From Myxococcales bacterium (GTDB lineage: Bacteria > Lernaellota > Lernaellaia > Lernaellales > Lernaellaceae), in contig JAAYVF010000036.1 in assembly GCA_012517325.1 (NCBI GenBank), positions 1 to 63,835 of the forward strand: 63,835 bases of DNA. Direction: 5' to 3'. The number at the start of each line of letters is the position of its first letter. The stretch's first letter is position 1. The notes below the pieces were generated by a model. It was not told the DNA's origin, did not search any database, and saw nothing but the letters and a program-made list of their open reading frames with translations. Below are positions 6,583 to 34,544 of the stretch, in pieces. Both the position numbers and the translations under genes were made by a program.

Positions 6583-6640
6583 GGTCGTCCTGACGGCGAA
6601 CGACGATACCCGGATCCGATCGAACGGTGGAAACGCCCGC

Positions 6641-6994
6641 TCAACAATAGGTCTGCACGCATTCCGCGGCGCAATCGCCAGCGGCACTGCAGTCGGCATA
6701 CTGGTTCATACAGGCGCACTCGCACGAAAGATCGCCCGCGGAATCGGCACAATCGTCGGCAAAGGCGTCGTAATCATCGAGACAATCCGCGACGGTCGGG
6801 TTAAAACCGCAATCGACCGCCCAGTCGCACATGCTTTGCACATTGCAGGCCACGTTATTGTTGCCGTTGGTGGCATTGTCATCTTCGGTCGTGTCGTCGT
6901 TGTCGTCGTCATCGTCATCATCGCCGCAGGAAACGGCCGTCAAACCCGCGCCGAGAACAAACACCAATACCATGACCCAACAAAAGGTTTTCAT
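6641..6994 (-). CDS. Small Cys-rich, Asp-rich lipoprotein
   Basis: This lipoprotein is 117 residues from the ATG at 6994, with GGAGGG six bases before it. A hydrophobic signal ends in AVSC, followed directly by GDDDDDDDNDD. The mature part of about 70 residues contains twelve cysteines spaced through an acidic chain, an even number that would permit six disulfides. No family is recognised. It is the first of a run of minus-strand genes (to 2340), but 58 bases separate it from the SGNH-like gene, so co-transcription is only possible. It may be a disulfide-rigid surface peptide or a metal binder. Confidence 0.65.
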   Translation of the reverse strand: MKTFCWVMVLVFVLGAGLTAVSCGDDDDDDDNDDTTEDDNATNGNNNVACNVQSMCDWAVDCGFNPTVADCLDDYDAFADDCADSAGDLSCECACMNQYADCSAAGDCAAECVQTYC

Positions 6995-7114
6995 TTTTCC
7001 CTCCGTCTTGAATGGCTGCGATCCCAGCAAAACACTTCAGGCGGTCGAAGGCAAGTTTATTCATCTTCCCTGATCCGGGAATAAGGGATGGAAGGTAGGC
7101 CGGCAACGACGGCC

Positions 7115-19100: not shown

Positions 19101-20114
19101 ATGGCCAACCGCCGATTGTCATTGGAATTTTATCTGGCGGCGCGGCGTTATCGTCGGCGCGGCGTCCGGCGGCCGTTTTTCGTCAGTTGGCGGATAACCG
19201 ACCGGTGCACGCGCCGATGCGAATATTGCGATCTGACCGCCGGACCGACGGCCGAACTGGAACCCGCCGAAGCCCGAAAGCTCTTGCGGGAAATGATTGC
19301 CGCGGGGACTCGCTGGGTGAATTGGACCGGTGGAGAGCCGCTCCTCCGGCCCGATTTGATCGCCCTGGCTCGTGAAGCCGCAGCCGCCAGCTTGGCGGTT
19401 TCGGTGAACACCAACGGCGATCTGCTGCCGGAAGTGGTGTCCGAGTTGCCCGCCGGTACGCGGATCGGGTTGAGTCTGGACGGGCCCGAGGCGGTGCAGG
19501 ATGCCATTCGCGGCCCGGGCAGCGCCGCCGCGACGTTTCGCGCCCTCGAAGCGGCTCGCGGCCGCGGACTGCCCGTTTCCTTGACCTGCATACTGACCGC
19601 GGCGAATTGCGATTCGCTGGATTATCCGCTGCGCATCGCGGCTGAACAGCGGTTGCCGATTTCCTTTCAGCCGGTAATCGCCTCGGCGTTGGGCTCGGAA
19701 CGTAGACATTCGCTGTCGCCAAGCCCTGAGCAGTTGACGGCGGCTTACGCGCGAATCGCCGCGGAGATACGGCGGGGCAATCGCTGGATCGAAAACTCAC
19801 TACAAAACCTGGAACATCTGTTCGGCCGTTCACCGGTCGGCGCCGCGCCGTGTGTCGGCGGCGCCCTGGCGGTCCGGATCACTCCGGACGGTTCGCTGAC
19901 GGCTTGCTGGGGAAGGCAGATCGACGGACCGGAACGGATCGCCTACGGACCGATTTCCTTCGCGGACGCCTTTTCCCGGCTGCGGCCCCAGGATTGTTCG
20001 CGCTGCTGGTGTTCGGGCATCGTGGAGGCGAACCTGGTGGCTCGCGATTCCGTTCCCCGGATATTCGCCCGCGCTTTCCATGAGCTGGCAAGGTCGGTGC
20101 CGTGGAAACGCTGA
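19101..20114 (+). CDS. Radical SAM protein, SPASM-like C-terminus (rSAM-1)
   Basis: This protein is 337 residues from the ATG at 19101; the longer frame from 18963 is Arg-rich and atypical. Cys36, Cys40 and Cys43 in CTRRCEYC bind the radical SAM [4Fe-4S] cluster. NWTGGEPLLRPD is the SAM-binding GGE motif, and SVNTNGDLL and LSLDGP follow as in the SPASM/twitch class. The C-terminal part has a Cys set (APC, ACWG, CSRCWC) suited to an auxiliary cluster. The substrate is unknown. The next gene starts inside its end (13-base overlap), so it is translationally coupled to the membrane protein. Confidence 0.88.
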   Translation: MANRRLSLEFYLAARRYRRRGVRRPFFVSWRITDRCTRRCEYCDLTAGPTAELEPAEARKLLREMIAAGTRWVNWTGGEPLLRPDLIALAREAAAASLAVSVNTNGDLLPEVVSELPAGTRIGLSLDGPEAVQDAIRGPGSAAATFRALEAARGRGLPVSLTCILTAANCDSLDYPLRIAAEQRLPISFQPVIASALGSERRHSLSPSPEQLTAAYARIAAEIRRGNRWIENSLQNLEHLFGRSPVGAAPCVGGALAVRITPDGSLTACWGRQIDGPERIAYGPISFADAFSRLRPQDCSRCWCSGIVEANLVARDSVPRIFARAFHELARSVPWKR

Positions 20115-21031
20115 AACGTTATAGTATGCCGATCCGTCTGGCGGTGCTGTTCGCCTTGCTCGTCTATCTCGTTTTGGCGTCTCGCGACACCTGGAACCAG
20201 ATTTCCTGGGAATTCTTCCGCCGGTCGCCGCTGTTGGCCATGAGCCTGGTCGCCATTGTCTGCAATGCGGTATTCCCGGCCTGGAAGTATCACTGGCTGT
20301 ATCACCGTTGCGGCGCGCCGATCACCTATCGAACCGCCTTGATTCTGGAACTGACGACCGCGAGCCTGTCCCTGCTGATGCCGGGCAAAACCGAAAACAT
20401 GGTCCGGGCGGCGGTTTTAAAAAGTCGCTTCGGAATGTCCTGGCGGCATGGTTTATGGGTGACCGTTTATCATCTTTACACCACCCTCATTGCTTTGCTG
20501 GCCACCCTGTCGGTATGGGCGGGCGTGATGAGGGTTTACTCGCCGGCGGCAAGCCTCGCCTTGGCCGTGGCGATCCTGATTTGCAGTTGGATTCCGATTT
20601 GGCTCGGGCGGCGGGTATCGTGGGCCGGCCTGGATCTGTTCGCGCGGTTTCGGGCCGGTGATCACGCGATTGCCATTTTATTTTCGTTCGTATTGATCGC
20701 CTCAATGCCGCTATTCATTCTGTTGGTCTTCGCCGCGCAGGGGATCGAAGCGGCGCCGGCGGATGTCGTCTTTCGGTCGCTTCTTCTGGATTTTCTCTCG
20801 CAACTGCCCGTCTCCATCGGCGGGATCGGCGTCAGGGAATCCGGCACGCTGTGGCTGTTCCGCAATCTGGCGCCGGCGTCGGTGTTGGTGGCGACCGGTT
20901 TTCTGACGACACTGTTCGAGAAACTGTTCATCGCCGTTCTGGGGCTGCCTTTCGTCATGGGCGTTTTGCGAATCGCCAAGACCGAAAAACAGCTGGATTC
21001 GGCTCGGGACGAACGCCCGGTTTCAGCCTGA
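20102..21031 (+). CDS. Lysylphosphatidylglycerol-synthase-TM-like (UPF0104) membrane protein
   Basis: This protein is 309 residues from a GTG at 20102, with AAGG eight bases upstream. An ATG at 20126 is possible and would trim eight residues. It has about seven to eight hydrophobic helices and the family motif PVSIGGIGVRESG near residue 240, as in the flippase-like domain of MprF and in stand-alone UPF0104 proteins. No synthase domain is attached. It may flip or guard a lipid-linked product made by the neighbouring enzymes. The frame overlaps rSAM-1 by 13 bases. The DegT-like gene follows after a gap of 166 bases if the GTG start there is right. Confidence 0.8.
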   Translation: METLKRYSMPIRLAVLFALLVYLVLASRDTWNQISWEFFRRSPLLAMSLVAIVCNAVFPAWKYHWLYHRCGAPITYRTALILELTTASLSLLMPGKTENMVRAAVLKSRFGMSWRHGLWVTVYHLYTTLIALLATLSVWAGVMRVYSPAASLALAVAILICSWIPIWLGRRVSWAGLDLFARFRAGDHAIAILFSFVLIASMPLFILLVFAAQGIEAAPADVVFRSLLLDFLSQLPVSIGGIGVRESGTLWLFRNLAPASVLVATGFLTTLFEKLFIAVLGLPFVMGVLRIAKTEKQLDSARDERPVSA

Positions 21032-21186
21032 AAAGTTGACCCACCCGATCGAATGCTCTACGCTGGCCGAATCCGGCCGAATCCTTCGCCGGCGGGTAGG
21101 AGCGGAGCCACGGTATTTTGATGCGAAAAGGCAATCGCCGAACCCAATCCCGACGCGGTCGGCGCGCCGTTGGCGCGAGGCCCGAC

Positions 21187-21190
21187 GGAG
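21187..21190 (+). promoter_or_regulatory. Shine-Dalgarno site supporting a GTG start for the DegT-like gene
   Basis: GGAG seven bases before GTG at 21198. The longest frame starts at a TTG (21036) five bases after the previous stop, but its first 54 codons are Arg/Pro-rich and do not look like a DegT N-terminus. Confidence 0.5.
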
Positions 21191-21197
21191 CGCGCGG

Positions 21198-22421
21198 GTG
21201 ATCCGGCTTTATCCCAATGAGGAGATTCTCGCCCAGCCGCGCGGGGAGGAATCGCCTGACGCGCCGATCGACCCTCGCCAGGCGATGGATCGATTGGCGG
21301 AGGCCGTGGCCCGGCTATTCGGTTTGAAGCGGGGATTCTGCGCCGCTTCCGGGCGCGCGGCTTTGGCGGCGATCCTGTCGGGACTGAATTTGCAACCGGG
21401 CGCTCGCGTCGTGCTGTCGGCTTACAATTTCTACGGATTGGCGGAGGTGATCGAGCGGCTGGGACTGGCGCCCGTTTATGTCGATCCGGACCCCGTCGCG
21501 GCTCGGCTGGACCCGGTCCGCACGGTCACCGGCGAGGCGGACGCCGCCGTCATCCTCGTGACCCATTTGTTCGGCGTCGTTAACGACGCTGCACGGATCC
21601 GCGAGCTGGCCGGCGATCGCGCGATCCTCGTCGAGGATTGCTGCCATATCCTGCCGTCTGCCGGGAACGGCGGCGCGAAAGTCGGCACGTCCGGCCGGGC
21701 GGCGTTCATCTCCTTTGATCGCTTGAAATTGCTCAATGCGATCTCCGGCGGGATGGCCTTGACCGGCGACGACCAACTGGCCGCGGCCCTGGCCGGGAAC
21801 CGGCAACCGTCGCTGCGGGACAGCCGATCGATGATCGCCGACCGCCTGCTTTACGAAATCGAACGCCTCGTGCGGCGGCCGGAACTTTACGCGATCGCCG
21901 GTCGGTTGTTGGCGAATCAACGCCTGATGGATCGCGTGCGCCGCCAATTCCGCCGCGCCAGGCGCGATCGGCAGGCGCTGCAGGCGGGCCTTCATCCGCT
22001 GCTGGGCGACCTCGGCCTGCGGCAACTGGCGGTTCTGGCGGAACGGCAGCGGCAGCGTCAGGCGTTGATCGCGTTTTACCTGGAACGATTGACCGCGAAA
22101 GCGGTCGATGAGCCCGGCCGGGCTTACGCGCGGGCGCTGGGCGATGCCTTTGCCGGCACGGCTTACGGGTTGATCGTGACTGTCGATCGCCCGGCGGAAT
22201 TTCAACGCCGGGCGCGGCAATGGGGTTTTGAAGTGCTGATCGGCGATCGCGTCGCGAGCTTTTTGCCACCGGGCTCCGGCGATGATTTTCCGCGCGCCCG
22301 GCACCTGGCGGCCCATGCCGTCAAATTGCCGGTGCTGATCGATGCCGATCCGCGACGGCTGGCCGATTTCGTGGAGCGGAGCACCGACCTGGCCGCCGCT
22401 CGGCTGGCGCCGATGGAATAG
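21198..22421 (+). CDS. DegT/DnrJ/EryC1/StrS-type PLP-dependent enzyme
   Basis: This enzyme is 407 residues from the GTG at 21198, giving VIRLYPNEEIL, a normal N-terminus for the family. FCAASGRAALAAIL is the substrate/PLP phosphate region, LVTHLFGVV and ILVEDCCHILPS hold the Asp that pairs with the pyridine ring, and FISFDRLKLLNAISGG holds the Schiff-base Lys. The family normally aminates keto-sugars attached to nucleotides. Here there is no nucleotide-sugar gene nearby, and the partners are two radical SAM proteins, so another substrate is possible. The radical SAM gene rSAM-2 follows after three bases. If the TTG at 21036 is used the protein gains 54 residues. Confidence 0.78.
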   Translation: MIRLYPNEEILAQPRGEESPDAPIDPRQAMDRLAEAVARLFGLKRGFCAASGRAALAAILSGLNLQPGARVVLSAYNFYGLAEVIERLGLAPVYVDPDPVAARLDPVRTVTGEADAAVILVTHLFGVVNDAARIRELAGDRAILVEDCCHILPSAGNGGAKVGTSGRAAFISFDRLKLLNAISGGMALTGDDQLAAALAGNRQPSLRDSRSMIADRLLYEIERLVRRPELYAIAGRLLANQRLMDRVRRQFRRARRDRQALQAGLHPLLGDLGLRQLAVLAERQRQRQALIAFYLERLTAKAVDEPGRAYARALGDAFAGTAYGLIVTVDRPAEFQRRARQWGFEVLIGDRVASFLPPGSGDDFPRARHLAAHAVKLPVLIDADPRRLADFVERSTDLAAARLAPME

Positions 22422-22424
22422 ACT

Positions 22425-23393
22425 ATGCAAACCAAGGCCCTGATCCGCACGGGACGCGCGCTGGCCGGCCGGGAGCCGTTTCCGCTGGCGTTGCGTTGTC
22501 GCCTGACCTACCGCTGTCAGGGTCGTTGCCGTTATTGCGCCTTGCCCTCGTTGAACGTTCCCGAGTTGGCCACCGACCAGTGGCTGGCCGTTTTTCGAGC
22601 GGCGGCCGCGGCCGGCGCCTGGCGCATCGCCTTTGACGGCGGCGAGCCGTTGCTGCGGTCCGACATCCGCGATCTGGCCGCCGCGGTGATCGACCTGGGG
22701 ATGACCCTGCACGTCAACAGCAACGGCCTGGAAGTGCCCCGGCACCTCGACTGGCTTTCACGGGTTTCCCTGGTGCAATTGAGCCTGGACGGCGACCGCG
22801 CCACTCACGAACTCTCGCGGCCGGGAATCCCTTATGACGCGGTGATCGACGCGGCGCGGCTGCTGACGTCCCGGCGGGTTCCGGTCCGCTTCATTTTCAC
22901 CATCACCGCGGCGACGGCTGAGGCCGTTCCGCGGGCTTTGCAAACGGCCGCGGAACTGCGCGTACCGATTCTCTTCCAGCCGGTTTTTCCGCTCCGGCTG
23001 TCGCGCGGCGCCGCGGCGGTCGATGACGAGCCGGAAAAACTCCGGCCGGCCATCGAGTACCTGTGGCGGGAAAAGCGCCGCTCCCGCTGGATCGCGAACT
23101 CGTCGGCCGCCCTGCGCTATTTGCGCGATTGGCCGCGAGTCCCGTTTCGGCGGTGTGCCGCCGGTTGGTTGTTCGCGGTGGTCGAGCCCGACGGCTCGCT
23201 CGTGCCGTGCGAACGAATCGACGGTGTCCCGCGCCTGCCCTGGAGCCCCGACCTGGATCTGTCCGCCGCGCTGCGCCGGCTGCAAGGCTATTCCTGCGCC
23301 GGTTGCGGTTTTTCGGGCGCTTATCGCCTGTCACGATTGTTATCGGTGCTGCCGCTACACGGTAAACCGGCGGACGACGAACCGGAGCGTTGA
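22425..23393 (+). CDS. Radical SAM protein with C-terminal Cys cluster (rSAM-2)
   Basis: This protein is 322 residues from the ATG at 22425, three bases after the DegT stop. Cys31, Cys35 and Cys38 in CQGRCRYC bind the SAM cluster; FDGGEPLLRSD is the SAM motif, followed by VNSNGL and LSLDGD. The C-terminal part contains CAAGWLFAVVEPDGSLVPC and CAGCG, the layout of a SPASM or twitch auxiliary-cluster domain. It is similar in plan to rSAM-1 (19101). The pair flanks the membrane protein and the DegT enzyme, so the four genes form one unit. It converges with the B12-type radical SAM gene nine bases away. Confidence 0.88.
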   Translation: MQTKALIRTGRALAGREPFPLALRCRLTYRCQGRCRYCALPSLNVPELATDQWLAVFRAAAAAGAWRIAFDGGEPLLRSDIRDLAAAVIDLGMTLHVNSNGLEVPRHLDWLSRVSLVQLSLDGDRATHELSRPGIPYDAVIDAARLLTSRRVPVRFIFTITAATAEAVPRALQTAAELRVPILFQPVFPLRLSRGAAAVDDEPEKLRPAIEYLWREKRRSRWIANSSAALRYLRDWPRVPFRRCAAGWLFAVVEPDGSLVPCERIDGVPRLPWSPDLDLSAALRRLQGYSCAGCGFSGAYRLSRLLSVLPLHGKPADDEPER

Positions 23394-23402
23394 GGGGAAT
23401 GC

Positions 23403-24893
23403 CTAATTATCGGCCGGCGCCGGCTTGACGTACTTGCGCAGTCGACGGTGCGGATTTTCCTGGTAGGCCTTGAAACGCGTATCCAGCACCGCGCGCTTGC
23501 TCTGCGCGAAGATCATCGAAAAAAGCGCCCGGGTTTTGCGTTTGAATTCCGTCCAGGTCCGGATGCCGAGCAGCGACCGCCAGAGGAAGCCGGGGCGGAC
23601 GTAGAAGCGCAGGTAGGCCAGCTTGGTCAGGCGGTTGATTTCGTCGTTGGTCAACGCCGTCCAAGGCCGCTCCAATTCGCGCTCCTCGACCTGGCCCAGG
23701 ATGTATTTCCGCCAGTAGTCGTCGCCGGTCCGGGCGAGCATATCCTGCCACATGGGCGAACCCGGCTTGGCGGTGAGCTTCGAAAACTGCGCGTAGTCGA
23801 GGTTGAGCCGGGTTGCGTAGTGGACGGTGCGTTTGATCGTTTCGGCGGTTTCGCCGGCGACACCGGTCAGGAAGAAACCGAGGGTTTTGATGCCGGCTTC
23901 CCGGGTGGCGCGGATCGCGTCTTCCACTTGGGTCAGGGTGATTCCCTTGTGCATTTCCGACAGCTTGTCCGGCGAGTCGCTTTCGATCCCGTAATAAATG
24001 CGCCGGCAACCGGATTCGCTCATCAGCTTCAGCAGTGGCCGGTCCACCGCGTCGACTCGCGAACGGCAGGCCCATTGAAGCCGCAGATCCCGGCGGAGCA
24101 TTTCCTCGCAGATCGTCGTCGTGCGCCGGCGATCGAACGTGAAGTTGTAGTCGAACAGGTCGATTTCGCGGACCCGGTACTCGCGCCGGCACTCTTCCAT
24201 TTCCGCCAGCACCTTTTCCGGCGAGCGGGCGTTGTAGGGCGTGTGCGACACCTCGCAGAACGTGCAGCCGCAGGGGCACCCCAGGCTCGTGACCATCACG
24301 GTGAAATTTTTTTGTTCGGTCGGAAACTCGGCGTAAAGATCGTTGGGCAGATCGCGGCGCAACGGATGGGGGAAGTCGTCGAACCGCACCGGCCGCGATT
24401 CGGTCATCCGGATTTCACCGCCTTCCTTCCAGACGAGCCCGGGCACGGTCTCGTACCGGCGGGCGCCGGCGAATTCCGTCAAAAACAGCGGCAGCGTTTC
24501 CAACGCCTGTTCGACGACGCCGAAGTCGATTTCCGGGTGGGCGATCGATTCCTTCGGGTAAACGCGCAGGTTGAACCCGCCGACGATCACCGGCACGTCG
24601 ACCCGCGCGCGGATGCCGCGTATCCACTCGCGGGTTTCGCCGAACATGTAGGTGGTCATCATGTAACCGATCAGGTCCGGCCGGAAGGCGTTCACCCGCC
24701 GCGCGGTTTCGGCGATGTCCAGTTCCAGCGTCCGCGCATCGATGAGCAGGGTTTCGTGACCGGCGCGCTCGGCGATCGCCGCGACCCAGGCCATGCTCAA
24801 GGGAGGGAAAAGCCCGAAAAATCGTTGCACCTTGGCAAGGTTTTCCTCGTGCAATTTGTAGCGAAAGGGCGGGAAAATCAGGGCCAGGCGCAT
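23403..24893 (-). CDS. B12-binding-domain radical SAM protein
   Basis: This protein is 496 residues from the ATG at 24893. The N-terminal domain has the Rossmann-like pattern of cobalamin-binding radical SAM enzymes (MRLALIFPPF, LLIDARTLELD, VIVGGFNLRVYP), but I do not see the DxHxxG His ligand, as in many BchE-like relatives. The SAM cluster is Cys206, Cys210 and Cys213. IYYGIESDSPDKL and FFLTGVAGETAETI are standard later motifs. Members methylate unactivated carbons or rearrange rings. A 144-base gap separates it from the GT-C protein on the same strand. Confidence 0.85.
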   Translation of the reverse strand: MRLALIFPPFRYKLHEENLAKVQRFFGLFPPLSMAWVAAIAERAGHETLLIDARTLELDIAETARRVNAFRPDLIGYMMTTYMFGETREWIRGIRARVDVPVIVGGFNLRVYPKESIAHPEIDFGVVEQALETLPLFLTEFAGARRYETVPGLVWKEGGEIRMTESRPVRFDDFPHPLRRDLPNDLYAEFPTEQKNFTVMVTSLGCPCGCTFCEVSHTPYNARSPEKVLAEMEECRREYRVREIDLFDYNFTFDRRRTTTICEEMLRRDLRLQWACRSRVDAVDRPLLKLMSESGCRRIYYGIESDSPDKLSEMHKGITLTQVEDAIRATREAGIKTLGFFLTGVAGETAETIKRTVHYATRLNLDYAQFSKLTAKPGSPMWQDMLARTGDDYWRKYILGQVEERELERPWTALTNDEINRLTKLAYLRFYVRPGFLWRSLLGIRTWTEFKRKTRALFSMIFAQSKRAVLDTRFKAYQENPHRRLRKYVKPAPADN

Positions 24894-25018
24894 CGATTTG
24901 TGCTCATCTGAAAACGCGGGAGGGGCAATTCCGTTCCGAATTTCGCCAGCGGGAGATCCGTCACGATCGAGCCTTCCCGGGAACGTAGTTTTTCTTCCGG
25001 TCACGACTTCGCGCCGAG

Positions 25019-25024
25019 ATTATA
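25019..25024 (-). promoter_or_regulatory. Possible -10 element upstream of the B12-type radical SAM gene
   Basis: TATAAT on the minus strand (palindromic ATTATAAT core at 25019-25026), about 126 bases before the start at 24893. I do not see a good -35 box at the usual distance, so this is a weak call. Confidence 0.25.
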
Positions 25025-25037
25025 ATTTCCGGGGTGG

Positions 25038-26621
25038 TCATTGTACAGGCAGCGGCCCTTTTGAATCGTCGCGTTCCAGCAAAAAAAGGTTGTGGAAATC
25101 CCAGCGCGGATTCAGCCGGGTGAAGCGATATTCCGGCATTTCGCGCCGGAGGTCGGTCGCAAACGTGTTGGGATACAGTGTCAGGACGTACGCCCGCGGC
25201 AGGCCGTCGAGCATCGTCCGGAACGCCGAAAAGCGAAAATCAACCCAATCCTGTGCGCGAAACGGGATGCCGTATTCCCGCAGGTAGAATTCCGTGCCCA
25301 AGCCGATATGACGGTAGAGGATCACGGGCAGCGGGTCGCGGCGCAAGCGATCCTGCAATTGCGTCAGGGTGTCCGAAAGGCAATAGCGCGACTGGTAAAA
25401 ATTTTGCGCCAGTTCCTGCGAGGAGGTCCCGCGGGCGATGTCGACCAGGGCGCGGCGGTCCATCAGGTCGATGTTCAACCAGAAAATGACGTTGCAGTAA
25501 ACGAACAGGGCGACCAGCAGAACACGGGGCGCGCGCCGGAGAAACGGAAGCCCTTGGTAAACCAGCGTCAGGGCCGTGGTGAACCACAAAACGAACAACG
25601 GTGTCGCGACCGATAGAATGCGGGCGGTGCCCAGATCGCCGATGCCGAGCAGGTAAAAGAGAGCGAACGGCGTGAGAAGGGCGGTGGTCAGCCAGGCGAA
25701 CCTACCGCGCAGCCGAAGCACCGCGTCCGACCGGCTCAAGAGGACGACCAGGCAGGCCAGGATCAAACCGGCGACCAGGAGCCACTGATCGGCGATGAAA
25801 GCCTTCACCGTGCCCGGCAGGACCACGCTGAAGGCGCGCGGTTCGCAATCCCAGCCGCGTGAAAAGTGATCGACCACGCGATTGCTTCGGCCCGGCAGGC
25901 GAAAAAGCAGCGGCGGAACATAGCCGAGAAAACCAAGTGCGGCGCCGGTCGCCAGGGATCGGAGTTGCAACCAGCGGTTGGTCCGCGCCTGGGCCGACGC
26001 CCGCGCCATCGCCGCGAGGCCGGCGACTCCCACGCCGCCGAGCAGCAGGGCGTTGGTGGGGATGGTGTAAACGAGCAGAGCGGCGCAAACGAGAATGCCG
26101 ATCCGGTCGCGGCGCCGCTTGCCGGACCAGGAAAAATAGAGCAGCAGCGATAAAAGCAACATGCTCAGGATGTACCCACGGATTTGCAGGCAGAAATTGT
26201 AAAACGGGATCGAAGTAGCCAAAAGAAGGACGACCAGCGGCGCGGCCTCGCGAGCGAGAAAGCGGACCGCGATCCGGTAAAGAACGGCGAAAATCGCCAG
26301 GGTATAGGCGAGCGGCACCAGGCGGATCAGCCAGGGGTGGCGCAACAGCGTCCCCAGTTGCAGGCCGAGCCCAAGCCGAAACGGCAGTGTGAAAAGATTG
26401 TCGAGCAGGTTGAAGAAGATGTGATTGCCCACATCGTCGTAACGCAAAACCGTGACCCACGGCGGGACGAAGGTGAAAAAAGACAGGGAGCTGAGTTCGT
26501 CGAACCAAAGGTCGAGATCGATCCGCCGGCCGAGCCAATACCCGAACGGCAGCAACAGAAGGATCGCCCCGAACAGGTCGCGCGGGTTGAAAGAAAGGCG
26601 CCGCATCCCGATCGTCTTCAT
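25038..26621 (-). CDS. GT-C-type membrane glycosyltransferase-like protein
   Basis: This protein is 527 residues from the ATG at 26621; a second ATG at 26606 is equally possible, and neither has a strong ribosome site. About ten to twelve hydrophobic helices cover residues 15-400. The first outside loop has LDLWFDELSSLSFF, the acidic D-E pattern of GT-C enzymes such as ArnT and protein mannosyltransferases, and a soluble tail of about 130 residues follows. Such proteins move a sugar from a polyprenyl-phosphate donor. It ends 144 bases before the radical SAM gene and starts 48 bases after the esterase-like gene, so it may belong to either transcript. Confidence 0.7.
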   Translation of the reverse strand: MKTIGMRRLSFNPRDLFGAILLLLPFGYWLGRRIDLDLWFDELSSLSFFTFVPPWVTVLRYDDVGNHIFFNLLDNLFTLPFRLGLGLQLGTLLRHPWLIRLVPLAYTLAIFAVLYRIAVRFLAREAAPLVVLLLATSIPFYNFCLQIRGYILSMLLLSLLLYFSWSGKRRRDRIGILVCAALLVYTIPTNALLLGGVGVAGLAAMARASAQARTNRWLQLRSLATGAALGFLGYVPPLLFRLPGRSNRVVDHFSRGWDCEPRAFSVVLPGTVKAFIADQWLLVAGLILACLVVLLSRSDAVLRLRGRFAWLTTALLTPFALFYLLGIGDLGTARILSVATPLFVLWFTTALTLVYQGLPFLRRAPRVLLVALFVYCNVIFWLNIDLMDRRALVDIARGTSSQELAQNFYQSRYCLSDTLTQLQDRLRRDPLPVILYRHIGLGTEFYLREYGIPFRAQDWVDFRFSAFRTMLDGLPRAYVLTLYPNTFATDLRREMPEYRFTRLNPRWDFHNLFLLERDDSKGPLPVQ

Positions 26622-26669
26622 TACCGGCACACTAGCCGGAGGCGGGAAGGGGAACAAGACGGAGCCGGG

Positions 26670-27887
26670 TCACTCCAGCAGATCCCGCCAGGTCGGATCC
26701 TCGTCGACCAGTTGGCCGATCCAGTCGTAGAGCGTCGTTCCGCGAATGGCCCGGTGCGGCCCGCCCGGCAGCAGGAATTCGTAAGTGGTGTGGGTGTTGC
26801 CTTGCACGAAAAACCGCTTGAAACGGCCCGGATAATCCGCGTGGATTTCGTCGGTCACCGCCATGAGGGTTTCCTCGAAACGGTCCGGATCCATGCCCAG
26901 GAACCAGGTCGAGATGATCCAGTCGTGATACGAGGAAAACAGGCCGATCCGCAGTTGCCGATCGTATTGCAGATACAACTCGTAAATGTAGGTCTGTACC
27001 GTGCCGCCGCATTTCGTGCAGTCGTCGGGGATTTGAATGTTCCAGGCGTCCTTGATCACTTCCCAACTCGCGAGATCGTCCGGGTTCCAGAAGCCGGTGC
27101 CCGAGTCGTTCATGATGTAGGTGTCGGTGTCCATGTACTGCGATTTGACGATCGCCCAGCCGAGGTAGGTGCCGTATCCGCCGGCGCTCGAGCCGGAGAC
27201 CAGAATCTTGTCGGGATGCGGAAAATACTTGCGCATCAGCGTCACCGCCGCGCCGACCTGCCGGAGCCCATGGTGGTAAGCCCACCGGCCGTTTTCCATC
27301 AGTTCGTTGTCGCCCATATGAATGCTGTGATCGCAATGCGGCACGTAAATGAAACTCCAATTGCGCAGCGGATTGTCCTCCTCGAACGATTTGAAACCCA
27401 TGTCCCACGGATAATCGAGCGGCACCGCAAAGCCGCCGCCGGGCCACGTCGCGCCGCCGCCTTCCATGAACAGCATCACCTTGTTTTCGGTTCCCGGATG
27501 AATGGCGACCTGCATTTTCGCGCCGAACGTGCAGCGGCAGTCGTCGGTGCTGTAGGTGAAATAGGTGTAGCCGTTATGCCCCGGGGCGCTGGATTCGGGC
27601 TCGATCCCGATGTACCGGTCGACATCCATCTTGTCGAACAACTCTTGCAGCTTATCCAGGTTGTCGTTGTCATCGTCGTCGTCGCCGGAATCGTTGTCGT
27701 CGTCGGTTCCACCGCCGCCAGAATCGTCGTTGTCGTCGTCATCGCCAGCGGCGGCATCGTCATCATTATCTTGAGCCTGCCCATGACCTGATCCGGGGTC
27801 GTCGTCGTCGCCGCAAGCGTTGAAAACCAGTAAGGGAAAAATGAGGAATAAAAAAAGGACCAGGGCCGAATGGAAATTGGCTTTCAT
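26670..27887 (-). CDS. Asp-rich lipoprotein, pectin acetylesterase/NOTUM-like
   Basis: This lipoprotein is 405 residues from the ATG at 27887, with TGAGGA upstream. The signal ends in VFNAC, followed by GDDDD and about 55 residues rich in Asp and Gly. The hydrolase part has FMEGGGATW (oxyanion region), VPHCDHSIHMGD, and VSGSSAGGYGTYLG with the nucleophilic Ser, the signature of the pectin acetylesterase/NOTUM family; NTHTTYEF is a candidate His region. It is probably a surface carboxylesterase that removes acetyl or fatty acyl groups. It sits inside the radical SAM locus, between the GT-C protein and the asparagine synthase gene. Confidence 0.78.
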   Translation of the reverse strand: MKANFHSALVLFLFLIFPLLVFNACGDDDDPGSGHGQAQDNDDDAAAGDDDDNDDSGGGGTDDDNDSGDDDDDNDNLDKLQELFDKMDVDRYIGIEPESSAPGHNGYTYFTYSTDDCRCTFGAKMQVAIHPGTENKVMLFMEGGGATWPGGGFAVPLDYPWDMGFKSFEEDNPLRNWSFIYVPHCDHSIHMGDNELMENGRWAYHHGLRQVGAAVTLMRKYFPHPDKILVSGSSAGGYGTYLGWAIVKSQYMDTDTYIMNDSGTGFWNPDDLASWEVIKDAWNIQIPDDCTKCGGTVQTYIYELYLQYDRQLRIGLFSSYHDWIISTWFLGMDPDRFEETLMAVTDEIHADYPGRFKRFFVQGNTHTTYEFLLPGGPHRAIRGTTLYDWIGQLVDEDPTWRDLLE

Positions 27888-28112
27888 GACATCCTCACCC
27901 AATCGTCAAGCCGTTATTAAAGAAACACGCCTTGGATGAACTCGTCCCCGACCGCGAAATCCGAATCATTCCGCCGCTGCCGTCGTGACAATGATCGATG
28001 AAAGTCCAAGAAGGGCTGATTCATGGTACATGAAAACGGCAAAAATAAAAGCCAAAATGTGTGGTATTTGAGCGTTTTGGAGTGGAATCGTTGGGTGGTC
28101 GCGGCAACCGTT

Positions 28113-30038
28113 TCAAGCGGGCGGCGCGCCGGCCGGCATCTCGCCGTGCCGCTCCAGGTAAATATGGCGCCAGAGTTGAAAATGCAGCAGGTTCCATAAC
28201 GGGCGGGCGCGATACAAATTCCCCGCCCGATATTGCTCCACCCATTGCCGCACGCGGCGCGGTTCGAAAATCCCTTCCGCGCGCAGTTTGTCCTCCGCGA
28301 GCAGTTCGTTCATCCACGGCCGTAGTGCTTCCAGCCATTGATGGATCGGGACGAAGAAGTTTTCCTTGGCCGTGCCGCTTACCGCGGGCGGCAACCACGG
28401 CGCCGTGGCCGCGCGCAGGACTTTTTTATTGGTCCGCATGCCGAGGTTGTCGGCGAGGGGAATCCGCAAGGCGCGTTCGACGAGGCGATAATCGAGGTAC
28501 GGGACGCGGCATTCCAGGCCGTGCGCCATGGTCATGGCGTCGCACTTGAGCAACAAGTCGGTGGGCAGGCGATTGGCCAATTCGAAGCGCAGCAGGTCGG
28601 CGACCGCGTCCGGCCCCGGCGCGTGCGCGAACCAGGGCGCGGCGAAATCCTCCGCCAGCCGTTCGAGGCCGATCTCTCGCACGTGTTCCGGCAGCAGCAA
28701 GCCGGTCGCTTCGTCGGCGAGCAGCACCGCCTGCACGGCCAGATAAGCGCGGCCGGGCGAATCGAGCGCCGCGAGAAAGCGCGCCAGGCGATCGAGGCCT
28801 TCGGGCCCCAGAATGGAAAAATAGCGGAAAAACCGGTCACCCAGGTGCGGCGGGATTCGGCGCAGCACGGCCGGCAATACCCGCAACGCGCGCGGCCCGA
28901 TCACTCGGGCGGCTTTCCAGGCCCATTGCAGGATCGCGGCCCGCTCGTAACCGGCGAAAATCTCGTCGGCGCCTTCGCCCGAAAAAATGACCTTGACCTG
29001 CTCCCGCGCCCGTTTGGCCAGCCGAAAAAGCGGCAGCGAGGTCGGGTCGGCGCATAACTCGTCATAGTGCCAGACAATGCGCGGCCAGTCGGCCGCCGCT
29101 TCCGGACCGACGACGATCGTCTGCGACGAATTGCCGAACCGATTGCGCAGCGCCGGGAGATTCCGGGCGGCGCGCAAGTCCGGCAGTTCGGCGGTGAAGG
29201 TGCGGATCGGCCCGGCGTGGTGCGTCATCGCGGCGAGCAGCCCGGCGGAATCGACGCCGCCCGAGAGGAACAAGCCGACTGGAAAATCGGAACGCAGGCG
29301 CAACCGCACCGAATCCAACAGCAACTCGCGGATTTCCTCGGGCCGCGTCGGTTCCACCGTGTCGCCGGCGGCCGGGGGCGTCCACCAGACCGTCAGGCGC
29401 AATTGCCCGTCGGCCCACCAGCCGCGATGGGCGGGCGGCAGTTTGAAGATGCCCGGGAAAATCGTTTCAGGCAGATCGTTGTGCCGGAACTGCAGAAAAT
29501 ACGCCAGCGCCGCCAGGTTGGGCCGCGCCGGCGGCGGTTCCAGCGGCAACAAGGCTTTGATCTCGGAAGCGAACAGAAAATCGCCGCGTGCGACGCAGTA
29601 GTAGAAGGGCTTGATGCCGAAGCGGTCGCGGGCCAGGAAAAGCCGCCGTTCGCGACCGTCCCAGATCGCGAAAGCGAACATGCCGTTGAATTCGGCGAGG
29701 CAGTCCTCGCCCCGGTGGATAAACGCCTGGAGCACGACTTCCGTGTCGGTGTTCGTGCGAAACGCGATACCGTCCCGGCGCAAGCGTTCGCGGATTTCCA
29801 GGTAATTGTAGACTTCGCCGTTGTGCACGATCGTGTAACGGCCGGTCGGGTCGGTCAGCGGCTGCCGGCCTTGCGCCGAGGGGTCGAGAATGGCGAGGCG
29901 CGCGTGCGCCAGTTCGATGCCGTCGCCGGAGAAAAGACCCTCGTCATCCGGACCGCGATGGCGCAAGGCCGCCAACGCCCGCCGCCATTTTTCGGGCGGC
30001 AGCGGCTCGGCCGCGATTCTGCCCACGAAGCCGCACAT
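28113..30038 (-). CDS. asnB: Class II asparagine synthase (glutamine-hydrolysing)
   Basis: This enzyme is 641 residues from the ATG at 30038. Cys2 in MCGFVG is the nucleophile of the N-terminal glutaminase domain, and LRHRGPDDEG and VHNGEVYNY follow in place. The synthase domain has LSGGVDSAGLL, the ATP pyrophosphatase loop. The length and order fit AsnB-type enzymes. It may make asparagine, but homologues embedded in biosynthetic loci often amidate other carboxylates or form beta-lactam-like rings. Here it is the last gene of a run with a GT-C-like protein and two radical SAM genes, so a tailoring role is plausible. Confidence 0.85.
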   Translation of the reverse strand: MCGFVGRIAAEPLPPEKWRRALAALRHRGPDDEGLFSGDGIELAHARLAILDPSAQGRQPLTDPTGRYTIVHNGEVYNYLEIRERLRRDGIAFRTNTDTEVVLQAFIHRGEDCLAEFNGMFAFAIWDGRERRLFLARDRFGIKPFYYCVARGDFLFASEIKALLPLEPPPARPNLAALAYFLQFRHNDLPETIFPGIFKLPPAHRGWWADGQLRLTVWWTPPAAGDTVEPTRPEEIRELLLDSVRLRLRSDFPVGLFLSGGVDSAGLLAAMTHHAGPIRTFTAELPDLRAARNLPALRNRFGNSSQTIVVGPEAAADWPRIVWHYDELCADPTSLPLFRLAKRAREQVKVIFSGEGADEIFAGYERAAILQWAWKAARVIGPRALRVLPAVLRRIPPHLGDRFFRYFSILGPEGLDRLARFLAALDSPGRAYLAVQAVLLADEATGLLLPEHVREIGLERLAEDFAAPWFAHAPGPDAVADLLRFELANRLPTDLLLKCDAMTMAHGLECRVPYLDYRLVERALRIPLADNLGMRTNKKVLRAATAPWLPPAVSGTAKENFFVPIHQWLEALRPWMNELLAEDKLRAEGIFEPRRVRQWVEQYRAGNLYRARPLWNLLHFQLWRHIYLERHGEMPAGAPPA

Positions 30039-30053
30039 TTCGTCCGCTTTTCC

Positions 30054-31559
30054 TCAACGAAGGGATTTGTTTAGTCTTCGCGCCCGGTGTTCACGCCACA
30101 GTTGCCAGGCCTTCGCCCAGGCGGCGCCGAAGATCAGAAAATAAACGAGATCGAACGGATAGCGATAGCGCATAATCGCGATGCTGACAAAAAATTGCGG
30201 TGCGTAGAGATAGATCAGGGTGGCATAGACGGCGACCCAATAAATTCGCGCCGCGTTTTTCGGAACCGCGGAGCCGTGACCGCCAGTCGATTCGTTCCCC
30301 GGTGATTCCAGCGCGGTGATCCGCTCGTCCCGGTCGCGTCGCCAGAGAACCCCCAGGCCAAGCAGGAGCGTCAGGAATATCAGAAAACGCCTACCCAACA
30401 AGCCGGAAAGGGTGAAATACAAGCCGCTGGCGGTCACGACTTCCAGAAAGTCCGGCTTCGCCGGTTGGCCGAGCGCAGCGACGAATTTTTTTTGGCAGGT
30501 GACGAACGTCGCGCCGGGCCTCGGCCATTGGGCTTTTTTTTGCGCGACGACTTCCAGCGAAAACAGTTCCTCGACCAACAGGTGTGTCCGGGCGTTCAGC
30601 GTCGCCGATATTTCCGCCAGCGAGCGGCGGAGATACGGCCACGGATAATGCCGGACATACGCGCGCCAGAGTTCCATCACCGCCGCGTAGGCTTCTTTTT
30701 CGGAATTTTTCCCCCGCGGTAACAGTTGGTTTTCAATGTGCTGAAACGCCCGGTAATGAATCGCGCCGTAATCGGTGCGGCCGACCTCGTCCAGGTAATC
30801 GCGGATCGCCGCAAGCGTGGGATCGGCGACCGGCAAGGCCGCCAGCGGCGCGGTTTCGTCGCCGACCAACCGATACATGACCACCGGGGCGAGGCCGTTG
30901 GAAAGGGCGATTTCGCCCGTCGCCTGGTGAACGCGTCCGACGGCGGGAGCCAAGACGAGCGCGCAGCCGCCGAAAAGCACCGCCATCCGAACGGCATAGC
31001 CTTTGAAATGATGCCGCGACAGATAAAACGGCGCGAGCGCCAGGGCGACCACCACCACTTGCCACTGGGCCACCGGTCGCACGTCGGCGGCGCATCCCGC
31101 GAACGCGCCGGCCAGGAAATACCAGGTGATGGACCGGAAGCGGATCGCCTGCCAGAGGGCGCCCAAGTGCAAGGCAATGAAGAACAGAAACAGCGTTTCC
31201 GACATCAAAACATGGCCCCAGACGACGAATTCGCCGTACAGTACGAAGGCCAGTCCGGCCAGCAGACCGGCCGCCCGGCTCGCGGCGCGACGGGCGATCG
31301 CGTACCAGATGATCGCGGCGCCCAGGACCAGCAGATGCTGGACGATCACCGCAATCAACGGGGAAAACAGCCGGAGGAAGAGACCGTACAGCGGCGGAAC
31401 CGAGATGGATTGAAGATCGCACCGGTACCCGAAGGTGTCGTGCTCGACCAGCGGCGGCAGGCGAAGTAGCGCCAGCGGCAGGCGCGCCAGTCCCCAAACC
31501 AGGACCAGCAACGGCAAGTCCGTTTTCCAGGCCGATGTGGTGGATAAGCTTTTTCGCAT
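30054..31559 (-). CDS. GT-C/ArnT-like membrane glycosyltransferase
   Basis: This protein is 501 residues from the ATG at 31559, starting three bases after the stop of rSAM-3. About ten to twelve hydrophobic helices are visible. The first outside loop has LVEHDTFGYRC, an acidic pattern at the place of the catalytic Asp in GT39/ArnT-like enzymes. A hydrophilic stretch lies near residues 230-340, followed by several more helices and a basic C-terminus. The donor is probably a polyprenyl-phosphate sugar. It is the second GT-C-like protein in this locus. Acceptor and product are unknown. Confidence 0.7.
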   Translation of the reverse strand: MRKSLSTTSAWKTDLPLLVLVWGLARLPLALLRLPPLVEHDTFGYRCDLQSISVPPLYGLFLRLFSPLIAVIVQHLLVLGAAIIWYAIARRAASRAAGLLAGLAFVLYGEFVVWGHVLMSETLFLFFIALHLGALWQAIRFRSITWYFLAGAFAGCAADVRPVAQWQVVVVALALAPFYLSRHHFKGYAVRMAVLFGGCALVLAPAVGRVHQATGEIALSNGLAPVVMYRLVGDETAPLAALPVADPTLAAIRDYLDEVGRTDYGAIHYRAFQHIENQLLPRGKNSEKEAYAAVMELWRAYVRHYPWPYLRRSLAEISATLNARTHLLVEELFSLEVVAQKKAQWPRPGATFVTCQKKFVAALGQPAKPDFLEVVTASGLYFTLSGLLGRRFLIFLTLLLGLGVLWRRDRDERITALESPGNESTGGHGSAVPKNAARIYWVAVYATLIYLYAPQFFVSIAIMRYRYPFDLVYFLIFGAAWAKAWQLWREHRARRLNKSLR

Positions 31560-31562
31560 CGC

Positions 31563-32813
31563 TCAGTTATACATCCAATTGCAGCGCGCGCATTGCGGCG
31601 GCGTTCGCCCGGTGCGGCGGAATTCGTCGAGCACCAGGCCGCGAAAGCGGTCGGCGGCCGCCGAGCGCCAGGCGTCGCGCAGCGAATGCGTGCGCACGTT
31701 GCCGTAAGCGATATACGGATAATCGATGCAATAAACGAAATCGCCGTTCGGCGCGAGGTGCAGACTGATGAACGGGGCGGCGCACAGCTTCTTTTGGCGC
31801 GGCAGTTCGCCGTTCGCGTAGTAGTTGCGCAACGCCGCCGCGTCAAAACCGCCGATCCGGTGGAAGCTGATCGCAAACGGCGAAATCCGGCGTTTGATCC
31901 ACGCCACCGATTCGGCCAGGGCCGCGTGATCGAAGTGGCGCAATTCGTCCCGGACGAAGGCTCCCCACGGCCCGGGGGCGTAGCCCCATTTTTGGGCCAG
32001 ATGGTCTGCCGCGACGGCCGCGTCCGGCGTGAGGAAATTCAACAACTGGACGTTCCACCAATCGATGGGCAGGCCGCGGCAAAGGCCATAAGTTTCGCGC
32101 AGGCGGCCGGCGTTGAGCGCCTGAATGACGCTGCTGATTTGAATCAGCGGGCCCCGGCGACCGATGGCTTGGCGCGCCGCCGCCAGATTGCCGATGCCGG
32201 CCAGGGTGCGGGCGAAAGCGTCCTTCTGGCCGCGCACCGCATCGTGCACCTCCGGCGGCCCGTCGAGCGAAATCGTCACCACGTCCACGCCGGTCCCGAC
32301 CAATTCACGAGCCAGGTCGCGGTCGGCCAGCAGCAGGCCGTTCGTGCTCAGGCGGGTCGGGATCCGCCGGCGGCGGCAAGCGTCGAGCATGCGGAACAAT
32401 TCGTCGCCGAGCAGCAGCGGTTCGCCACCGGTAAACTTGACGTAGGGGCGTGGCGACCACGTTTCGATTTCGCGAAAAGCCGGCGCCAGGTCGTCGTAGG
32501 AGAGGCGGGCGCCACGATAGGGCGGCTCTTGCATCACCTGGCGGATGCCGCACATCCGGCACGAAAGCTGGCAGGCCGAACTGACGGCCGCGACGATTTC
32601 GATCGGTGTCCGCCGGGAAACGGCCCGGGCGCCGGCGACGGATCGAGCGGCGATCGTTTCGTAGAGTCGGCGCAGGAAAATGGTTTTCGCGAAGTTGCCG
32701 TAGCGGGCGCTCAACCGGGCGATGCGCCATTGGTTGTTGGCCATGGCCGCCAAGAGTTCGGTCGGATTTCCTTCACGCCGGTCCATCCGGTTTTGGGGCG
32801 GCGCGTCAGTCAT
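31563..32813 (-). CDS. Radical SAM/SPASM protein (rSAM-3)
   Basis: This protein is 416 residues from the ATG at 32813, preceded by GGAG. Its start lies inside the end of rSAM-4 (8-base overlap), so translation is coupled. Cys81, Cys85 and Cys88 (CQLSCRMC) bind the cluster after an unusually long N-terminal extension of about 70 residues. KFTGGEPLLLGD, LSTNGLLL and ISLDGPPEVHDAVRG follow. The C-terminus has CAAPFISLHLAPNGDFVYC and CARCNW, the SPASM layout. Members modify ribosomal peptides, lipids or small molecules; no peptide substrate was found next to it. Confidence 0.88.
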   Translation of the reverse strand: MTDAPPQNRMDRREGNPTELLAAMANNQWRIARLSARYGNFAKTIFLRRLYETIAARSVAGARAVSRRTPIEIVAAVSSACQLSCRMCGIRQVMQEPPYRGARLSYDDLAPAFREIETWSPRPYVKFTGGEPLLLGDELFRMLDACRRRRIPTRLSTNGLLLADRDLARELVGTGVDVVTISLDGPPEVHDAVRGQKDAFARTLAGIGNLAAARQAIGRRGPLIQISSVIQALNAGRLRETYGLCRGLPIDWWNVQLLNFLTPDAAVAADHLAQKWGYAPGPWGAFVRDELRHFDHAALAESVAWIKRRISPFAISFHRIGGFDAAALRNYYANGELPRQKKLCAAPFISLHLAPNGDFVYCIDYPYIAYGNVRTHSLRDAWRSAAADRFRGLVLDEFRRTGRTPPQCARCNWMYN

Positions 32814-33924
32814 GGTCGCTCCGGGAAGAGGCAGGAAAATCCACCGCCACATAGCAACAACCCCAGCAGGCGGGCAGGGTTCCCGCGGCGCGGATCGCCC
32901 GGCGAAAATCGCGGAACGCCGCGCCCCGCCAGATTTCGCGCCAGGACGAATCGCGCACCGATCCGACCTTTACGCTCAGGCAAGGAAAGACGTCGCCCGC
33001 GGGATTGATGACGAGATTGCCCCACGGGCCGCGGCAACGGCGCATGCAGCCCGGCCCGTCGGCCGGCGAAAGAAAGAATTGCGCCGCCGATTCCGCCGAC
33101 GGAAACGGCGGATAGAAGCGAAAGCGCGTGCGGCCGCTGCCGCGTTGTTGCCGCAAGCGCGAAAAGACCGCCGCGAACTCGCGCCGCGCGGCCGGATCCC
33201 GCGGGCCGAACGGGTGCTGTTGCCGGAACTCCGGAGGCGACAAATCCGGCTTCAAAAACGGGCTGAGCATGACCGGGTTGTCGTAGGCGAGGGAGAAGGT
33301 CAGGAAATCCGCGTCCAGTTCCGTCGCCAGGGCGACGAAGTGGTCCACCTCGTCGAGGTTGCCTTCGTGCACCACGACCTTGAGGTCCAGCAGCGGCCGG
33401 CGCTTTCCCGTGGCTCGCTGGCGGGCGCGCAGCCGGCGCAGATTTTCGACCGCCATTTCATAGTGGCGCGGCGCGCGAACGAAGGCGTCGTGCCGCTCGG
33501 GAGTGCCGTAAATCGGGGCGCCGATGAGCACGACCCGGCGGCGCAGGATCCGATCGATGAGTTCGTCGGTGAGCAGCGTCGCGTTGGTCAGCAGATTGAC
33601 GACGCGACGCCGCGCGATGCCGTCGAGGAGGCGCTCGAACTCGGGGTAGAGCAGCGGTTCGCCGCCGGTGATGGTGATCAGGGTATAGGGCGGCAACGAA
33701 TGGGCCAGCGCGATCCAGTCGGCCGCGTTCAGGCCGTCCGGGGGCAGGTCCTTCGCGCCCTGGGGAGTGTGCTTTTTACAACAATGACGGCAAAAGGAAT
33801 TGCAGCGGTAGGTGATTTCGAATTGGGCGCGGTAGGGGGCGAGAAATCCGGAATCGCCGAGCAGGAAGGCCGCGCCTTCGTGCCACGAAGTCAGACCCCG
33901 GTACCAGACATCGGCGGAAAGCAC
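32806..33924 (-). CDS. Radical SAM/SPASM protein (rSAM-4)
   Basis: This protein is 372 residues from a GTG at 33924, chosen because GAGGTG precedes it by five bases. An ATG at 33978 gives 390 residues but has no site. Cys41, Cys45 and Cys48 (CNSFCRHC) bind the SAM cluster; TITGGEPLLYPE, LLTNATLL and APIYGT follow. The C-terminal part has MRRCRGPWGNLVINPAGDVFPC and CWGCC, a SPASM arrangement with extra Cys. It is the first gene of a tight run: rSAM-4, rSAM-3, GT-C-like and AsnB, with gaps of at most 15 bases. Confidence 0.87.
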   Translation of the reverse strand: MLSADVWYRGLTSWHEGAAFLLGDSGFLAPYRAQFEITYRCNSFCRHCCKKHTPQGAKDLPPDGLNAADWIALAHSLPPYTLITITGGEPLLYPEFERLLDGIARRRVVNLLTNATLLTDELIDRILRRRVVLIGAPIYGTPERHDAFVRAPRHYEMAVENLRRLRARQRATGKRRPLLDLKVVVHEGNLDEVDHFVALATELDADFLTFSLAYDNPVMLSPFLKPDLSPPEFRQQHPFGPRDPAARREFAAVFSRLRQQRGSGRTRFRFYPPFPSAESAAQFFLSPADGPGCMRRCRGPWGNLVINPAGDVFPCLSVKVGSVRDSSWREIWRGAAFRDFRRAIRAAGTLPACWGCCYVAVDFPASSRSDHD

Positions 33925-33929
33925 TCCTT

Positions 33930-33935
33930 CACCTC
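33930..33935 (-). promoter_or_regulatory. Ribosome site favouring the GTG start of rSAM-4
   Basis: GAGGTG on the minus strand, five bases before GTG at 33924. The alternative ATG at 33978 is preceded by an AT-rich stretch without such a site. Confidence 0.45.
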
Positions 33936-34076
33936 GACACCCGCAAAAAAAAAATAGCTCGTGGCCGAGGTATAGCATTGCCGATTTTAGCCGTCAATTA
34001 TTTGCGGCGAACCAGCATCCGGAGTTTGAGCCCTCTGCGGAACGATCGGCGCGGACAGGAACCTTCGCCGAGTGAT

Positions 34077-34544
34077 TCAAGCGCGGGCTTTTTCCATCTC
34101 CAGAAATTCGATCGATTCACCCTGCGGGTCGAGTTTGCAGCCTTCGCCGGTTTGTCGGAAGCCGCAGGCGCGGTAACAGGCGATCGCGCGGGCATTGTTT
34201 TTCCGGACGTGCAGGCGAACCCGTGCCAAGGAAAAATCAGCCGGGGCGGTGCGAATGGCCAGGTCGATGGCCGCTCGCCCGATTCCTTGGCCAAGCAGAT
34301 CCTCCCGGCCGATCAAAATACCCAACCGGACGATCCCGGCTTCTTCTTTTTCCAACCATACGGTGCCGACCGCCGTTCCGTCGACGACGATGACCGACCA
34401 CTGATAGGCTTCATCGGCAGGGAGGGACCGCCGGTTGAATCGCCGGGGGACGCAACGCGACAGGTAACGCCAAGCGTCGATGGTTTTGCACCAACCGTCG
34501 AGCGCCGGCAAATCTTCTCGGGTGAACGGGCGTAAGGTGATCAT
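34077..34544 (-). CDS. GNAT-family N-acetyltransferase
   Basis: This enzyme is 155 residues from the ATG at 34544. It opens with MITLRPFTREDLPAL, the usual RimI/RimJ-like beginning. The acetyl-CoA site is in LIGREDLLGQGIGRAAI (the Q/R-x-x-G-x-G pattern), followed by LHVRKNNARAIACYRACGF, the conserved N-x-x-A-x-x-x-Y block. The length is normal for a single-domain GNAT. It transfers an acetyl group to an amine in the cytoplasm; the acceptor is not evident. It sits beside the radical SAM locus on the same strand, 152 bases upstream of rSAM-4, so a link is possible but unproven. Confidence 0.85.
   Translation of the reverse strand: MITLRPFTREDLPALDGWCKTIDAWRYLSRCVPRRFNRRSLPADEAYQWSVIVVDGTAVGTVWLEKEEAGIVRLGILIGREDLLGQGIGRAAIDLAIRTAPADFSLARVRLHVRKNNARAIACYRACGFRQTGEGCKLDPQGESIEFLEMEKARA

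Follow-up and report, generated by a model that had tools for sequence, protein, structure and literature searches.

Gene content and layout of the locus

We examined a window of 63,835 nucleotides, which is one entire contig (C36; GenBank JAAYVF010000036.1) of genome G000 (assembly GCA_012517325.1; 5.25 Mb, 96.75% complete). Five genes for radical S-adenosylmethionine (SAM) enzymes lie within 15 kb of this contig, next to genes for glycosyltransferase-like, amidotransferase and putative flippase proteins. An earlier note on this DNA had described these five genes and their partners as one candidate locus for an unrecognized biosynthetic pathway or a surface modification, and every gene that it named was confirmed in its place.

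The genes on the plus strand constitute module 1. The first, rSAM1 (A; 19101..20114), encodes a twitch-type radical SAM protein (PF04055, 8e-23); an alternative start at 18963 would add 46 residues that have no counterpart in most aligned relatives. It is followed by a UPF0104/LPG_synthase_TM membrane protein (B; 20102..21031; PF03706, 2.8e-14) that is a putative lipid flippase, a DegT/DnrJ/EryC1 enzyme of the pyridoxal phosphate (PLP) type (C; 21198..22421, in a frame open from 21036; PF01041, 4.6e-27), and rSAM2 (D; 22425..23393; PF04055, 9e-16), a paralog of rSAM1 (35%).

The minus strand carries module 2, which we define as rSAM4, rSAM3, a GT-C protein and AsnB together with a second GT-C protein. 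The order on this strand begins with a GNAT acetyltransferase (34077..34544; PF13302, 4e-13), possibly the first gene of the module, as its strand and spacing suggest. Then come two SPASM/twitch proteins, rSAM4 (K; 32806..33978, likely start 33924; PF04055, 5e-16, and PF13186) and rSAM3 (J; 31563..32852; PF04055, 2e-17, and PF13186), a GT-C protein of the PMT_2 family (I; 30054..31559; PF13231, 28.8 bits, cut-off 26.1) and an AsnB-type amidotransferase (H; 28113..30038; TIGR01536, 409 bits, over the cut-off). The last three are a pectinacetylesterase (PAE)/Notum-like lipoprotein (G; 26670..27887, or to 27902; PF03283, 1.2e-10), a GT-C-like polytopic protein (F; 25038..26657) and a radical SAM protein with a B12-binding domain (E; 23403..24893; PF02310, 8e-14, and PF04055, 2e-18). 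The lipoprotein at 26670-27887 and another at 34766-36955 both have long Asp-rich linkers straight after the lipobox cysteine.

The two gene sets are convergent and meet end to end at 23393/23403. Many adjoining genes of both modules overlap or are spaced within about 15 bases; the wider intergenic gaps are at 21032-21197, 24894-25037, 27888-28112 and 33979-34076. The locus consists of at least two transcription units. A single operon or conserved unit is ruled out by the gene orientation and by the copies found in genomes G004, G005 and G006, and the notion of one unknown locus was abandoned because of the convergent layout and because copies of each block are found with the other one missing. 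Scans for promoter-like sites (2 compared with 3.0 in shuffled sequences, no excess) and terminator-like sites (34 compared with 21.5) were not used.

The radical SAM enzymes and their partner proteins

None of the five radical SAM proteins is a known housekeeping enzyme, because none reached an NCBIfam cut-off among the matches listed; the best score of rSAM1, for example, was 83.5 bits against a cut-off of 265. The possibility that each belongs to a housekeeping family, which would have undone the earlier proposal, is not borne out by these matches. The CX3CX2C motif for the SAM cluster is invariant in all 14 aligned sequences of the rSAM1/rSAM2 (A/D) type and all 17 of the rSAM4/rSAM3 (K/J) type, and the two families can be aligned over most of their length. 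Both alignments also contain four invariant auxiliary cysteines. The seven cysteines of a two-cluster SPASM domain were not found, as only these four are invariant (a fifth lies next to C374 in the rSAM4 rows), and the pattern is that of a one-cluster twitch domain. Four of the enzymes had been called SPASM-like; the Pfam SPASM threshold was passed by rSAM3 and rSAM4 only.

Profile searches against the PDB matched the K/J family to the auxiliary domain of BtrN (1.4e-16), and it is through this domain match that rSAM3 and rSAM4 may be credited with BtrN-like dehydrogenase chemistry. The A/D profile matched SkfB and PqqE first and also cytosylglucuronate decarboxylase. The best PDB relative of the B12-type enzyme was AprD4 (4e-22), whose substrates are aminocyclitols or sugars. 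SkfB acts on peptides, according to excerpts of the literature, and excerpts of PMC9012708 describe BtrN as oxidizing an aminocyclitol alcohol and PqqE as acting on peptides. The predicted structure of rSAM1 was too poor for use (predicted local distance difference test, pLDDT, 57.1), and the AlphaFold2 model of the GT-C-like protein F was likewise unreliable (pLDDT 44.6).

The partner proteins indicate what these enzymes might act upon. The UPF0104 protein scored 53.7 bits with PF03706 (cut-off 33.4), consistent with a putative flippase role. Excerpts of PMC5898192 present UPF0104 proteins as predicted flippases beside PMT/STT3-like enzymes in archaea, and excerpts of PMC12713373 connect them with the synthesis of glycolipids in Pseudomonas, although flipping there has yet to be proven. 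The DegT enzyme retains the invariant Glu-Asp and the PLP lysine (Lys177) in six of six DegT sequences, and its PDB relatives are perosamine synthase and an inositol transaminase. The AsnB protein begins with MCGF (N-terminal cysteine), contains SGGVDS and has both glutamine amidotransferase (GATase) and synthase domains, with Pfam and TIGR01536 scores over cut-off. Two GT-C-like proteins had been proposed: I is over the PMT_2 cut-off, whereas F has no Pfam match of its own, and its relative in G005 (61%), which lies next to rSAM4, reaches 22.1 of the 26.1 bits required for PMT_2.

Recurrence of the two modules

We searched for relatives of each module in seven genomes of the phylum (G000 and six others) and in 379 genomes outside it. 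The six other phylum genomes have 20 A/D-type relatives (E up to 1e-15), and for 9 of these a UPF0104 gene is no more than 4 kb away; an even spread of UPF0104 genes would give 0.26. UPF0104 adjoins rSAM1/2-type genes in five of the six genomes. DegT, radical SAM and UPF0104 genes are consecutive in G001 (L036), and DegT genes are also found near A/D-type relatives in L031 (twice), L035 and L044. A scan of genome contigs with rSAM2 found a distant locus, L029 (22%), as its sole result. Arrays of about five B12-type radical SAM genes surround one A-type gene at L037:7988-19395 and L039:6736-16524 (G003 and G005).

Outside the phylum, A-type relatives (E up to 1e-25, few candidates scored per genome) were present in at least 9 of the 379 genomes. 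In G262, of another phylum, two B12-type radical SAM genes, an A-type gene and UPF0104 are followed on the same strand by a radical SAM gene and an A/D-type gene, and in G053 a tandem A/D pair lies between PMT_2 and GT2 genes. The seven loci other than those in G262 and G053 have other neighbors. Within the phylum module 1 is well conserved; outside it the module is rarely seen. Several of the A-type neighborhoods have features of their own. DUF362 proteins lie beside A-type relatives at L147:574-2702 and L148:4645-10164, and a C25 peptidase with a type IX secretion tail does so at L150:3208-10025; an open reading frame (ORF) of L148 (1128 aa) equals that peptidase in length. Genes for flavin adenine dinucleotide (FAD)-type amine oxidoreductases adjoin A-type genes in two phyla (L044:15246-16724 and L154:7474-8838).

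Module 2 recurs in two to three relatives within the phylum, where rSAM4 has counterparts in G005 (66%), G004 (48%) and G006 (46%). In G005, genes F, K, J and the first part of I are consecutive, with the rSAM3 relative (56%) beside rSAM4, and H (65%) is on another contig. In G006, K is accompanied by an AsnB from a different branch (28%) and by a protein that resembles PMT_2 but scores under the cut-off (20.9 bits); in G004 its companions are one PMT_2 and one GATase_7 protein. Overall, two of four K genes, the window's own among them, have AsnB no more than 5 kb away, compared with 0.023 expected. The G005 copy points to rearrangement or misassembly: its gene I is continuous with DUF6784 sequence, and there are two transposase-like ORFs on the upstream side of the block (L079:844-1785 and 6101-7280).

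Outside the phylum, rSAM4 relatives (E up to 1e-20) occur at 24 loci in 23 of the 379 genomes, some of which are related (G040, G185 and G319 are of one family), so that the loci are not all phylogenetically independent. As controls we took 18 stretches of the same genomes, amounting to 269 kb compared with 381 kb for the rSAM4 loci. At least one gene matching any of six glycan models was found at 15 of 24 rSAM4 loci and at 2 of 18 controls; with the three loci used for model building left out, the count was 12 of 21 compared with 2 of 18 (p = 0.003). Full-length AsnB (6/24 compared with 0/18, p = 0.026) and B12-type radical SAM genes (10/24 compared with 2/18, p = 0.031) were enriched as well. 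The most telling locus is that of G092 (L163), a polysaccharide cluster with nearly the window's parts list: Wzy_C (O-antigen ligase), UPF0104/LPG_synthase_TM, AsnB, the rSAM4 relative, GFO/IDH, GT4, PMT_2, a methyltransferase, a B12-type radical SAM protein, a second PMT_2, GT2 and an epimerase. The B12-type, GT2 and epimerase genes of this cluster were called by our own models and the remainder by Pfam. G366 (L110) contains a similar cluster. In two genomes a 23S_rRNA_IVP protein is encoded between the rSAM4 relative and another radical SAM gene (L111:9614-12396 and L113:9163-11953).

A probable surface-glycan function weighed against its alternatives

Together, the flippase precedents for UPF0104, the eps_aminotran_1-like AsnB and the PLP-competent DegT enzyme favor lipid-linked, nitrogen-decorated sugars as substrates. 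We infer that both modules probably tailor and export such sugars for a surface glycan or glycolipid. The twitch enzymes of module 1 would oxidize or otherwise activate C-OH or C-H positions of a sugar or cyclitol, the DegT enzyme would install an amine, and UPF0104 would move the lipid-linked product to the outer leaflet. In module 2, rSAM4 and rSAM3 would act on a related sugar, AsnB would convert a uronic carboxylate to the amide, and the GT-C proteins would transfer the finished sugar from its polyprenyl carrier outside the membrane. The B12-type enzyme may introduce a change at the carbon level, and acyl groups may be trimmed by the lipoprotein esterase. Gene neighborhoods in other phyla support the earlier suggestion of surface modification with a lipid-linked substrate and no precursor peptide, whereas the suggestion of a single locus did not survive the convergent arrangement and separate recurrence of the blocks. 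The two modules may serve one product or two.

Several observations weigh against a surface-glycan function. No gene of the six glycan models was found at 9 of the 24 outside rSAM4 loci, and GT-C genes alone were not in significant excess there (4/24 compared with 1/18, p = 0.27). The AsnB protein scores 370.5 bits with eps_aminotran_1, under the cut-off of 816.9. Wzx/Wzy and GT2/GT4 genes are absent from the window block, and the G005 copy of module 2 lacks E and G. Both modules occur together in no other of the seven phylum genomes, and a lack of co-occurrence in other genomes is what the earlier note had named as refuting its proposal, although G092, in another phylum, combines UPF0104 with AsnB, an rSAM4 relative, GT-C proteins and a B12-type radical SAM protein. 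At the outside A/D loci a glycan gene was found in only 3 of 9, UPF0104 in 1 of 9 and GT-C in 1 of 9; the others adjoin DUF362, EPSP synthase, carbamoyltransferase or FAD oxidoreductase genes. Finally, with peptide maturases among the best PDB matches of the A/D family, the fold alone does not exclude peptides.

Some of these observations would suit a secreted aminocyclitol or amino-sugar natural product that is not built into the surface. The nearest structural relatives are BtrN, AprD4 and the inositol and perosamine aminotransferases, and carbamoyltransferase and EPSP synthase lie by A-type relatives elsewhere. However, the presence of UPF0104 and of two proteins of GT-C or GT-C-like type suggests lipid-linked intermediates, and the block has no dedicated exporter or carrier-protein genes. 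We regard this alternative as unlikely.

Also improbable is a cluster for a ribosomally synthesized and post-translationally modified peptide (RiPP), in which SPASM-like enzymes would mature a peptide from a precursor that is concealed here or lies at another locus, and AsnB would form a macrolactam as in lasso peptides. SPASM-type enzymes are common peptide maturases, the first matches of the A/D family are SkfB and PqqE, and H weakly matches lasso cyclases (219 bits, cut-off 525). However, ORFs that lie mainly in the gaps from rSAM1 to rSAM4 are few, none exceeds 41 codons and none is convincing, in agreement with the earlier note; we set the RiPP reading aside for want of such a precursor, having looked for one at this locus and nowhere else in the genome. 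No block gene had an RRE or PqqD match at threshold, the radical SAM genes of copies L079 and L146 mostly overlap their neighbors or are separated from them by a few tens of bases, and the neighbors in other genomes are glycan enzymes.

A joint function could be lacking altogether if radical SAM genes cluster simply because they are numerous in the phylum. There are 124 radical SAM places in G000 and 89-137 per genome across the seven, and the two blocks do not travel together. Uniform placement put five in some 15-kb window of G000 in 4% of trials. With gaps of up to 10 kb allowed, G000 has four groups of at least five places, including this locus, compared with 0.18 expected, and therefore clustering is a trait of G000. 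The crowding is genuine without being peculiar to this locus, and three other groups as large or larger rule it out as a unique feature. These groups, at C122:6810-20162 (six), C64:16034-22076 (five) and C25:3255-11796 (five), are denser than the window's; the C64 matches all fall within one open frame of 2455 codons. However, partner sets recur within and outside the phylum, and we give a lack of joint function little weight.

Least plausible is a hopanoid-like pathway for lipid head groups with HpnH/HpnJ-like enzymes, an aminotransferase and a UPF0104 partner (HpnL is of this type in the hopanoid pathway): the composition resembles such tailoring and E scores 143.5 bits with HpnJ, and K and D 58.7 and 45.2 with HpnH, but these values are far under the cut-offs (577.6 and 225), and the pathway was rejected for the missing squalene-hopene cyclase in G000, which has no SQHop_cyclase_C match (two of the seven genomes have strong ones). 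The hopanoid reading is largely refuted; another polycyclic or ladder-like lipid is possible.

Within the surface-glycan interpretation, a more tentative proposal, to which we give less than even odds, is that rSAM3 and rSAM4 represent a widespread unnamed family of BtrN-like twitch enzymes that are dedicated to the oxidative tailoring of uronic or uronamide sugars in surface glycans and act in concert with AsnB, B12-type radical SAM, GT-C and UPF0104 proteins. If true, the surface-sugar chemistry of bacteria would have a radical branch, one that is greatly expanded in the phylum.

Relation to known systems

BtrN of butirosin biosynthesis (PDB 4M7S/4M7T) shares the auxiliary-domain match and four auxiliary cysteines with rSAM3 and rSAM4, and its pathway also includes a DegT-type aminotransferase. 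In contrast, rSAM3 and rSAM4 are longer, have another core and lie in a membrane-glycan neighborhood with no antibiotic cluster. The uronamide-forming AsnB proteins WbpS and WbqG (O antigen and the linking sugar of A-lipopolysaccharide, A-LPS) resemble H in architecture, in the eps_aminotran_1 match and in the polysaccharide neighborhood of related loci, but H reaches 370 of the 817 bits required and has no Wbp sugar pathway beside it. Predicted flippases of the UPF0104 type (AglD, MprF, GpgF) have the same PF03706 match and GT-C or GT partners, whereas the window's protein is paired with radical SAM and DegT enzymes; the term "radical SAM" occurs 0 times in the UPF0104 paper (PMC5898192). Hopanoid clusters likewise combine radical SAM, B12-type radical SAM, aminotransferase and membrane proteins that act on a lipid, but G000 has no cyclase, and all scores of the locus are far under the hopanoid cut-offs. 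The clusters of G092 and G366 that contain rSAM4 relatives belong with the Wzx/Wzy or O-antigen-ligase polysaccharide clusters, whereas the window has only tailoring, flippase-like and GT-C genes.

To our knowledge, most radical SAM enzymes known to modify sugars come from antibiotic pathways. Radical chemistry on lipid-carried surface sugars is little studied, and the titles and abstracts of the papers found by searches of open-licence literature describe no recurring set of radical SAM, AsnB, GT-C and UPF0104 genes. If such a set recurs in several phyla, it would offer surface-glycan biologists new chemistry to look for, and the unnamed radical SAM proteins in such clusters gain a testable substrate class.

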